A stretch of 64,000 nt of DNA from Lophium mytilinum (lineage: Eukaryota; Ascomycota; Dothideomycetes; Mytilinidiales; Mytilinidiaceae). The stretch lies in contig MU004188.1 in NCBI GenBank assembly GCA_010093605.1, positions 1,064,341 to 1,128,340 of the forward strand, written 5' to 3'. The notes below the pieces were generated by a model, which searched no databases, was not told the origin of the DNA, and saw only the letters and a list, made by a program, of their open reading frames with translations. Made by a program: the position numbers and the translations under genes. This document shows, in pieces, positions 56,062 to 60,708 of the stretch; position 1 is the first letter of the stretch; each line of letters starts with the position of its first letter.

Positions 56062-57867
56062 CTACGATGCCGCGAGCTTGTCTGCCGCAGCCCTTTCCGC
56101 CTCAACCTCCGCGACTACAATGCGCCTGACGCCCTCCCATCCTTCAGACTTGCGCGCGACAGTGACGCGCCGCGCCTTGTCTTCTAGTCCATGGAACTCG
56201 ACCGGGAGCACCGTATCGAAGCTGAACCCTGGCTGCCCCTGCAGCGCCATCTCCACGGCCTTGCTGAACTTGGCCGGATGCGCCGTTGCGAGGGAGATGT
56301 GATGGGTTGTGGGCGGCGGGTTGCGTTGGACGGAGCGGAGCGAGGCCGTGATGCCAATAGCAGAGTGGGGGTCCAGTATGTATCCTTTGCCTGTCGTGCC
56401 GGAAGCAGATGTTTGCGAGATTGCCGGCGACACAGCGCTGTAGATGGATGTGATGGTTGCAAGAGTCTCCTCATCCGACACCCGTTCGGATTCAAAATCA
56501 GCAGAGGCAGCCCGGAGAATCTTCTCGTCTACGCTGAACCCGCCCTTGGTTTTCAGCTCGGCCAACCAATTACGGACATGTTCTCCCGCCGTTGAGCGAC
56601 GGGTGGAGACAGGCGAGGACGGGGACGTGTATACGTTGTAGGCGAGGTACCACAGCAGCCGTTCGAAGTTGGACGAGACGAGGATGTCCATTGCCGGGCT
56701 CAGTGTCTCCTTGACCCCGTCTTCGTGTGCCAGTGCTCCGTCCTCCGGCACGCCGCCCGATGCCGCGGCGCCGTGGACAGGCTTTTTCTCATACTTGCCC
56801 GTTTGCCAGAAGCGGTGGAGGATATCATTAGCATTGGTTGCAATGACGAGCCTTTCGGCTGGCAGCCCCATCTGTTTTGCAAAGTATCCGGCAAGGATAT
56901 CCCCAAAGTTGCCGGTAGGAACGACGTAGCGGATAGTTGCGCCTGACACAAAGGATGGCGAGCGGATGAGAGCGAAGTACGAGTGGAAGTAGTACGTTAT
57001 TTGCGCCAGGATACGGGCCCAGTTTATCGAGTTCACGGCGGCGAGGCGGTGCGTCTTATTTATGATGGGATCTGCAAAAAGAGCCTTCACGAAGTCCTGA
57101 GAGATGTGTTAGCATTTGCGGTAAATAGAGAATGGAGATACTTTACGCACCTGGCAATCATCAAACGTGCCGTCTACCGCGAGATTGTGGACATTGGCAT
57201 CCATTACTGTAGTCATCTGCGCTTCCTGGATGGGACTAACCTTTCCCTGGGGATGCATGATGAAGACCGAGACATCCTTCTTTCCCCTCAAGCCATAGAT
57301 GGCCGCTGACCCAGTATCTCCGCTGGTAGCCCCAATGACCGTTAAATGTTCCCGATCTCTACCCGTCTTTCCTTGATTTCTTCTTACGAGGAAGTATTCA
57401 AACAAGTTCCCCAGGAATTGCAGCGCAACATCTTTGAACGCAAAGGTCGGCCCGTGAAATAGCTCTAGCAAGTGTATCTTCTTCTCTTCATCTAGTGTCA
57501 CAATGGGAGTAACGTCAGAGGTCCGGAATGTCGAGTAACTTCGCCTGATGAGTTCTTTGAGGTCTGCGGAGGGAATCTCGGTTGGTGAAATGAAGAGGGA
57601 GAATATGTTGAAGGCAAGCTCCTCGAAAGAGAGGTCTTTCCATGCTGACGCCCAGTTGGCTGGGAGGGAGGGTATTTCTTCGGGGATGAACAAGCCGCCG
57701 TCAGATGCGAGGCCTTTCAGCACAGCCTCTTCGAAGGAGAGCTACCATGTTCTCAGCTGTTGCCAATTCTAAAGGACAAAGATACAGAAATAGGCTGGAA
57801 CACTGCTCACATCGTAGGATCCTCCCCGGGTGCTGAGGTAGCGCTGAGAAGCGGTATGTGAAGCCAT
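56062..57867 (-). CDS. THR4: Threonine synthase
   Basis: PLP enzyme converting O-phosphohomoserine to threonine, the last step of threonine synthesis; cytosolic, 560 aa (budding yeast enzyme about 514). Exons: 57811-57867, 57151-57741 and 56062-57096. The N-terminus HTASQRYLSTRGGSYDLSFEE is the fungal threonine-synthase start, joined across a 69-bp intron. The PLP lysine is in HGPTFAFKDVALQ. ATSGDTGSAAIYGL binds the phosphate and DGTFDDCQ precedes intron 2. VNSINWARILAQITYYFHSY and VVPTGNFGDILAGYFAK are fold signatures. A roughly 25-residue Gly/Ala/Glu insert after KYEKKPVHG accounts for part of the extra length. The C-terminus is an Ala/Glu-rich helix. A divergent partner, the U3 snoRNA gene, lies about 750 bp upstream. 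Confidence 0.97.
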
Positions 57868-58214
57868 TGCAGCCGTTCAGTTGCTCGTGCGCAGATGTCA
57901 AGACTAGCCTATAGAGGGAACAATGACGAGTATTCCAGGGCGATAGATTGATACAAATTCCAAAACGCTCCTTCACACAATATGCCAGAAGCTGGTACCC
58001 CACTGCAGGAGTCAGTGCTACCGTGCGAGAGATTTGGAGGGGGTTGAATCATCGGCCCTGGTCGGCGATATCGGGCGGATCTTTTTTTGCAAGCCACAAG
58101 CGCGAGTCAAGTTTGGTGAACATCAAATGGCAGTCCTGTGATTCTATTTGTGGTGGCCCCGAGAGTTATCGAGATTCTCGAAGCCGTGGTTTTCAAGGTT
58201 TTGCTATCGTATTA

Positions 58215-58331
58215 GAAAGCCTTAGGCGGTGCTTGTTAAGCCTAGAGTGAGTGTCGTTCCAGATTATAGTCCATGGAGTGTATAATGAAATCACGTATTC
58301 GAGGACTGCCACTTTCTGTTTAGGAAAGCCT
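58215..58331. mobile_element. MITE-like element, copy B
   Basis: Sequence related to the element at 45581-45730. Both start with AGGCGGTGCT and, 73-79 bp later, share ATTCGARGACTGCCACTT. Copy B is bounded by 8-bp direct repeats GAAAGCCT (58215-58222 and 58324-58331). The right inverted repeat is weak, and the right-hand GAAAGCCT partly aligns with the end of copy A, so the exact boundary is uncertain. Confidence 0.4.
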
Positions 58332-58579
58332 GCCAGTCGTTCCTGCAGGATCCCAAGCTGTAGACGCTACACGTGAAAAGCTACAGGAGACACGGGCACT
58401 GCTACATATCTGATTATTCGTCCATTAGAGGCTTCCGCTACATTCGAAATGAATCTCTGATGCCCACGGACCGCTTTCGGACCTGGTGCGCGGTTCCTGG
58501 CGGTGGAGCAATTTTCAGCGCGATTCTAGAACCAGCCTAGCGCCGCATCAACGTTAGCGCGTCGCCGAAATATTTTTCG

Positions 58580-58585
58580 TATAAG
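58580..58585 (+). promoter_or_regulatory. TATA-like element of the U3 gene
   Basis: TATAAG lies 40 bp upstream of the inferred 5' end of U3 (58620). Fungal U3 genes are transcribed by RNA polymerase II, for which this spacing is acceptable. Confidence 0.45.
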
Positions 58586-58619
58586 ACCTCGCTGCCGCCG
58601 CCGCTTCTTCTGTTCTTCA

Positions 58620-58915
58620 GTCGACTTTGTAAGTTTCCCACTCCCCCCATGGAGTTCAAACCACCATCTCCCAAAGGCCTCATCGCTAACAACCCATTAC
58701 CACAGACTTCATAGAATCATTTCTTTAGTAAACGTCCTCTTCTGAGTCTCTTACCAGAGCCACAGATCTCCAACCTGGCTGATGAGTTTTATCCTCGATG
58801 TCCCAAAGTGAGGCCTTTTACCCTTGCTTCGGCGAGGGTGGCGATGATCTTGCGCTGGCTCAGGCGGCTGACTTCGGTCGGTCTGGTCAGCAGGACGTTG
58901 GGAGAAATCTGACAG
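58620..58915 (+). ncRNA. U3 small nucleolar RNA, with intron
   Basis: Box C/D RNA of the small-subunit processome that guides early 18S rRNA processing in the nucleolus. The RNA begins GTCGACTTT (58620-58628), is broken by a 77-bp GT-AG intron (58629-58705; GTAAGT, GCTAAC branch, CACAG), and resumes ACTTCATAGAATCATTTC, which matches the yeast U3 5' domain. Box A is at 58711-58728. Box C' TGATGAG is at 58780, box B AGTGAG at 58807, box C GCGATGATC at 58841 and box D TCTGA at 58908, all in the U3 order. A 7-bp hairpin with a TTCG loop (58821-58838) sits between B and C, and another TTCG hairpin (58868-58881) between C and D. The spliced length is about 219 nt; both ends are inferred. An ATG at 58798 opens a 159-codon frame that is not a gene. 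Confidence 0.93.
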
Positions 58916-59453
58916 GCTTTTCGAAGCTGCAATGTTGTGTGTGGGATACAATCTTGGAGGTTATGTGCGTGGTCGCTAGGTCACCGAATACCATCTTTTG
59001 CCTGAACAACCTCTTCCTGCTTTGTGATATCTTGTACTGCTGTGAAGTCTTCCCCTGCTGCGACTTTTACGCTGCCTTCGTGATGAAGCTGCTACCCCGA
59101 CATCGAAATCCGAGCAAAATTTTCACCACCGTGCGTCGCGAAAGAGGATGTAATGCCCGCGCGGATTGCTGTTGCACTTCATCACTGACGGAAGCTGACA
59201 TTCTTCATCGCCTACAGCTCGATGATCTTCAGCCAGTCTCCGTGGGTTGTCTCACGAAGCGCTTGATAGTCATCTGATGCCCAACCAAGAGTTCGAGCCA
59301 AGATGTCATTCACGCACAAGTGTCGTAACGCCTTAAGTTAGACCGCGTCCGTCTTACTGCGATGATGCGTGTAGATTCAATCTATAGTCGTTCTAAATAC
59401 GCGTTCTCCGCACGCATGCCCGTCCGAAATCCAATATCCCATGATACAATTCA
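58916..59453. other. Intergenic after U3
   Basis: 538 bp between the U3 3' end and the end of the acetyltransferase gene (minus). A weak box C/D-like arrangement is at 59075-59195 (see findings). A T-run follows U3 (TTTT at 58918). Nothing else seen. Confidence 0.4.
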
Positions 59454-60708
59454 TCAACACCAGCCATATTTCTCGCAACCGATCCAATCAATGCTGTCCG
59501 CTACCGGATGCTCATGCGGAAGGTTCCATTTCAAGCTTGCGATGCTCTCTTTGTCTCTGTTCACCACCTCAGCCTCAGGGTCCAGCATCTGAGCTGCGAA
59601 CACCATGGCGGAGTTGGGGTTCCATGCCTGAAGCTCCGCCATTTTCCATTTTCGCGCCTCCTCTTGGGCCACGAGCAAGAGCGCTGCGACTGCAGCTGTA
59701 TGCTTGGAGGTGTTACTCGAACCATTGCTCGGGTTCTGAGCTCCGTGACCTTCCCAGCTCGACCCCCCTTGCTCTTCAATTACTAGGCGGAGGATGTGGA
59801 GGGTGTTGCTTTCGCTCGCGTTGGGGTCATTGTTGTACCACATCCGCGTCCAGTAGCACCAAACCCTTTTGCCTTCTTCGGAGCCTACGATGGCCCCTTT
59901 GATCTCGGGCGCTTTACCGTGCAGCACGTTGCCGACGAAGTCCTCTCGGGCGTGGTGCCACTGGATGGTGTTGATATCAGGGATCAAAGCGACTGCTGTT
60001 TTGCTCTTTGCTGATCGGGACCCCAAGCTCTTGCGGATAAGAGCCTCGTCGATCCGGCAAAGTTCTGCGAGATCTTTCTCATAGAGAGGACGAGCCGTTG
60101 GGAGACTGTCGGTTGGCAATTTCTTCGCGGTCCTCGCAGGCACAGCTATATGAGCGGAATTGAACGGTTCCCAGCCAAGTCTAGAATAGAACCCCTTCGA
60201 AGTGTCAGAATTGAAAAGAGCCGTCATTTTACATTGCTCAGAGACTCACCTTGCCAATGTCGGAGTAAAGTACAGAGAAAAGAGACTCCTGATCTCCTGT
60301 CTGCCACGTCCGCAATGCTTTCCCAACCTCTTGCATCATTCGTTGCGCATAGCCCTTCCCTCTCATCGCTGGCGGGCAAAATACGCTCCCAATGCCATGG
60401 GAGATGGTCTCTTCAACTTTTCCATTGCGAGCGACTAATGCCTTTTTTCGGTACGACTCGCAGGCACACAGAACAACCCTCTTCTCAGCGGCGGTGTCGA
60501 CAAGAGCCCAATACGTGATGCCACCCTCTTTAGTCTGCTCTTGATTCGCGAGAACTTCTTCGCGACGCAGATATGTCTCTAGGGAGAGTGCACCTCTCCA
60601 TTCCACGCCATTGGCCCTGAATTGGGCCAGCTTCTCCTCCGGAGTAGGATGGACTAGGGCGAGAGTAGGACACTTCCCGTCCGGCAGGTTTGTGAGAGCA
60701 GACACCAT
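59454..60708 (-). CDS. LYC1: LYC1-type N-acetyltransferase
   Basis: Protein of 399 aa from exons 60250-60708 and 59454-60194, separated by a 55-bp intron (GTGAGT donor, CGAAG acceptor). It belongs to the fungal Lyc1 family, named for the Yarrowia lysine N6-acetyltransferase of lysine breakdown. The GNAT core is in exon 1: VVLCACESYRKKALV, then the acetyl-CoA loop in FCPPAMRGKGYAQRMMQEVG (R/QxxGxG/A type), and LYSDIGK. Splicing adds GFYSRLGWEPFNSAHI, the expected GNAT strand. A second lobe contains IQWHHARE and VWCYWTRMWYNND. Family assignment is firm; the lysine substrate is inferred from the family. Probably cytosolic; no signal seen. Confidence 0.88.

Follow-up and report, generated by a model that had tools for sequence, protein, structure and literature searches.

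The window, by which we mean the whole 64-kb stretch of Lophium mytilinum DNA analysed here, holds one Rfam match above cut-off, Fungi_U3 (RF01846), one overlapping match of the same clan having been set aside. The match covers 58702-58917 on the + strand and reaches 126.8 bits, where the cut-off is 95, with an E value of 3.4e-31, which bears out the preliminary description's identification of a U3 gene. A permissive Rfam scan of 57500-59600, up to E 1, returned nothing beyond Fungi_U3, same-clan overlaps apart. Together with the sequence upstream of the match, the predicted gene comprises the following features.

58580-58585, + strand: TATA-like motif TATAAG, found by pattern match; putative promoter element, 40 nt upstream of the presumed RNA 5' end
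58620-58628, + strand: predicted U3 exon 1, GTCGACTTT; 8 of 9 letters as in the Rfam Fungi_U3 consensus
58629-58705, + strand: predicted intron of 77 nt, GTAAGT ... CACAG; called from sequence signals, presumably spliced
58685-58690, + strand: branch-site motif GCTAAC, the only RCTRAY match within the intron; presumed branch A at 58689
58706-58917, + strand: predicted U3 exon 2, opening with ACTTCATAG; Rfam RF01846, with the 3' end as given by the model
58714-58719, + strand: box A core GAATCA, found with a relaxed pattern; one letter off GYATCW (PMC5832005)
58780-58785, + strand: box C' core TGATGA, aligned to the Rfam consensus
58807-58811, + strand: box B core AGTGA, sequence match
58827 and 58872, + strand: CTTCGG stretches of two hairpins, sequence match
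58842-58850, + strand: box C, CGATGATCT, letters identical to the Rfam consensus
58909-58912, + strand: box D, CTGA, aligned to the Rfam consensus

Boxes C', B, C and D thus follow one another in U3 order and are accompanied by the two CTTCGG stretches, as had been described. The strict patterns of PMC5832005 for boxes A (GYATCW), C' (WYGATGA) and C (RTGATGA) are each missed by one letter, a deviation that the Rfam alignment accommodates for boxes C' and C. As to the extent of the gene, the letters at the proposed start, 58620, are those reported, but the Rfam match ends at 58917, 2 nt past the previously given end at 58915. Fungal U3 genes have their own promoter with a TATA box and a HomolD box (PMC5832005); no HomolD-like site turned up in 58380-58619 when CAGTCACA and its reverse complement were sought with up to one mismatch. 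Directly 3' of the end of the Rfam model lies a run of four Ts (58918-58921, + strand), which could be due to chance, and an open frame of 159 aa (58798-59277, + strand) overlaps the U3 gene, probably also by chance.

Both U3 models, RF00012 and RF01846, match the 43.2-Mb, 24-contig genome at one place each, namely the 58702-58917 locus, and a DNA search of the genome with exon 2 found exon 2 itself alone (1 of 1 candidates scored). The locus is therefore apparently the sole U3 copy of the L. mytilinum genome, a count that is a lower bound, as 48 of 330 (RF00012) and 24 of 479 (RF01846) candidates were scored and there may be a diverged second copy.

Protein-coding genes flank the locus on both sides. 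A threonine synthase gene with the Pfam domains Thr_synth_N and THR4_C lies at 56062-57723 (- strand), and its 54-nt intron (57150-57097, - strand) uses GCTAAC and CAG, as the U3 intron does. At 59454-60227 (- strand), possibly reaching 60708, lies a gene for a LYC1-like GNAT acetyltransferase; the adjoining open frame 60238-60708 is without a Pfam match. Among the best 120 of 400 matches, the LYC1-like protein shows 97% identity to an L. mytilinum protein across the whole 257-aa query and 82% identity to a protein of Mytilinidion resinicola. Lophium belongs to the Mytilinidiales within the Dothideomycetes.

Splice signals upstream of the Rfam match

U3 spliceosomal introns are characterized by GT-AG ends, a GTRWGT donor, an RCTRAC branch site 6-36 nt from the acceptor and a position in the 5' arm of hairpin M1. 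The preliminary description had placed an intron at 58629-58705 with GTAAGT, GCTAAC and CACAG, and these letters do stand where it put them, with 16 nt between the presumed branch A and the last intron base and the site falling between consensus positions 9 and 10, so that all of these sequence features are present. When both ends were shifted by up to 6 nt, a single alternative GT/GC-AG pair emerged (58633-58705).

Taken on their own, the intron signals are uncommon but not unique: a full donor-branch-acceptor signature occurs within 150 nt upstream of 21 of 3,500 YAG triplets. The first nine letters of the Rfam consensus, in turn, are matched in at least eight letters at 10 places among the 127,970 positions of the two strands, and at one of these ten, the 58620 locus, GTRWGT follows. 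The weight of the intron call derives from this coincidence, because the signals meet an exon-1 consensus match followed by a donor, a combination found once in the 127,970 positions. The same coincidence, precisely at 58620 and with donor, branch and acceptor all suitably positioned, argues against an intronless U3 whose RNA would start near 58702 (ACAGACTTCATAG...), with the upstream GTCGACTTT and the splice signals there by chance. Such a start would agree with the Rfam alignment, which begins at 58702, runs full-length with a 5-nt deletion and passes the cut-off without any intron, and intronless fungal U3 genes are known (PMC5832005).

The 5' domain with and without the predicted intron

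What separates the two readings further is the 5' domain. The suggested check with a covariance model on the unspliced sequence gave a score above cut-off, yet with the deletion in the 5' domain, where the intron had been placed: on contiguous DNA, the Rfam model takes a 5-nt deletion, and five M1 pairs lose their 5' partner. To the consensus and structure line of this match on contiguous DNA we compared the joined exons. Over the first 42 consensus letters, the joined exons agree in 35, compared with 28 for the contiguous DNA when ungapped and 30 with the model's 5-nt deletion. Consensus pairs of hairpin M1, six letters of exon 1 (GTCGACTTT) pairing with exon 2, are formed in 14 of 15 cases by the joined exons, as opposed to 8 of 15 (ungapped) or 9 of 15 (with the model's deletion) by the contiguous DNA. 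Furthermore, box A', whose motif TACTY is nearly perfectly conserved (PMC5832005), arises across the junction as TACTT and is absent from the unspliced 58620-58917. The M2 hairpin is present in the computed fold. A two-hairpin 5' domain with boxes A' and A is hence predicted, of which box A' and the 14 of 15 M1 pairs appear after splicing alone; at the level of sequence, removal of 58629-58705 restores the 5' domain of a fungal U3.

An RNA starting at 58702 would retain three possible basal M1 pairs but would deprive five others of their 5' partner and lack box A'. Considering this alongside the unique match at 58620, we regard a start at 58702 as very unlikely.

Folding energies were compared as well. 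Over the 16 GT sites in 58330-58699, M1 energy is lowest for the proposed donor (-9.0 kcal/mol), with a runner-up at 58486 within 0.4 kcal/mol (-8.6 kcal/mol); when 2000 random 9-mers were put in place of exon 1, 51 reached the energy of the proposed one. Base pairing with 18S pre-rRNA is a further mark of fungal U3. Pairing with the 5' end of 18S rRNA, computed with a presumed 18S sequence, gave -8.4 kcal/mol for the spliced form, -12.0 kcal/mol for the longer unspliced piece and -7.7 kcal/mol for exon 2 plus nine intron letters; among 1000 random replacements of exon 1, 503 reached the spliced value. With this presumed sequence, the pairing energies fail to distinguish the spliced form from the unspliced one or from random sequences and lend it no support.

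Unspliced, the 5' domain appears damaged, as it might in a U3 pseudogene or a decayed extra copy. However, the cores of the boxes are present, as are the two CTTCGG hairpins, no other copy turned up in the genome (in a search that gives a lower bound), and U3 is present in all 147 fungal genomes surveyed in PMC5832005, leaving decay with a negligible probability.

In our assessment, with a probability of roughly 96%, the locus is a Dothideomycete U3 box C/D snoRNA gene, independently transcribed and carrying a spliceosomal intron. By analogy with the rest of the family, a primary transcript would start near 58620, the spliceosome would excise 58629-58705 and fuse GTCGACTTT to ACTTCATAG, and this fusion would rebuild box A' together with the 5' arm of M1. 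The mature RNA would then, with a trimethyl cap and as part of the U3 snoRNP, act like U3 elsewhere, as a pre-rRNA chaperone in 18S maturation. Fungal U3 is generally a Pol II transcript, and the preliminary description likewise names Pol II for this gene. The abstract of PMC5832005 gives polymerase III for U3.

Comparison with published U3 introns

Introns in fungal U3 genes have been charted by Canzler, Stadler and Hertel (2017, PMC5832005). Of 310 genes in their survey, 138, spread over 78 of 147 genomes, carry one, and such introns occur in the vast majority of the Pezizomycotina analysed. According to the same survey, the 5' half of M1 harbours 133 of the 138 introns, the mean length is 92 nt, the mean branch distance is 15 nt and 129 of the introns contain the branch motif RCTRAC; those of Dothideomycetes are alike in sequence and slightly variable in position, and direct evidence of U3 splicing is cited for S. 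cerevisiae and N. crassa alone. In the literature searched, it was the only paper to name U3 introns as such or to mention U3 snoRNA together with Dothideomycetes. An exact-pattern scan of bacterial, archaeal and viral collections, which is silent on fungal conservation, returned two stretches in bacterial/archaeal contigs (a Diapherotrites archaeon and a Bacteroidetes bacterium), neither of them an Rfam match at cut-off, and none in viral contigs.

The preliminary description had taken an intron in a filamentous ascomycete to be either ancient and shared or repeatedly gained. Neither the occurrence nor this dilemma is new, both being already found in PMC5832005, where a single gain followed by sliding and repeated gain were discussed and could not be distinguished. 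Our analysis contributes a further Dothideomycete U3 gene, apparently single-copy, to a set that is already well charted, and has little significance alone; its use is that of an exact data point, with the junction inside box A' and some 8 nt away from that of yeast, bearing on whether fungal U3 introns reflect sliding of an ancestral site or repeated gain, the question raised in PMC5832005. A further-reaching scenario, which we consider unlikely, is a separate gain at a non-yeast site that would split box A' of an apparently sole U3 gene, such that every functional U3 would be spliceosome-dependent and splicing could gate ribosome production.

For comparison with yeast, we used the 5' end of spliced yeast U3 that PMC6171561 prints as part of a construct. 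In a gapped alignment to its first 87 letters, the spliced Lophium sequence agrees at 73 of 86 positions and the unspliced one at 69 of 86, so that splicing adds just 4 matches; gaps were allowed because a length difference of 1 nt spoils the ungapped count (15 of the first 40 letters). The opening of exon 2, ACTTCATAG, had been called a conserved yeast U3 sequence and is indeed common to the printed yeast U3. In the gapped alignment, the Lophium junction corresponds to a point after yeast nt 8. The yeast junction can be deduced from a 3'-splice-site primer given in PMC3454408, the exon part of which begins at yeast nt 17; the yeast exons would therefore join no earlier than after nt 16, and the two sites are about 8 nt apart. 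Consequently, the idea that the Lophium intron sits at the very place of those in snR17A/B is not supported at the nucleotide level, though the 5' arm of M1 contains both sites. The mismatch with S. cerevisiae snR17A has no bearing on the status as a U3 intron, because the position of published U3 introns varies from clade to clade (PMC5832005).

SNR17A and SNR17B of yeast share with the Lophium gene their U3 identity, the GTCGAC 5' end, ACTTCATAG and an intron within the 5' arm of M1, but their introns lie about 8 nt further downstream and are 157 or 130 nt long. PMC12350175 gives these introns as the two present among the yeast snoRNAs of its set. S. cerevisiae has two U3 genes, whereas one was found in Lophium.

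For Neurospora crassa, PMC2780460 describes three U3 genes with a small intron in each. Like Lophium, it is a filamentous ascomycete with a small intron per U3 gene and with independent transcription of U3, as is predicted for Lophium, and it differs by its three copies as opposed to the one found in Lophium. Close counterparts are also the Pezizomycotina introns of PMC5832005, Dothideomycete ones among them; the Lophium intron resembles them in interrupting the 5' arm of M1 and in its GT-AG ends, GTRWGT donor and RCTRAC branch site; a difference from the intron-bearing Pezizomycotina U3 genes described in the main text of that paper was not found. With its 77 nt and a branch distance of 16 nt, near the published means of 92 nt and 15 nt, the Lophium U3 intron fits the established pattern.
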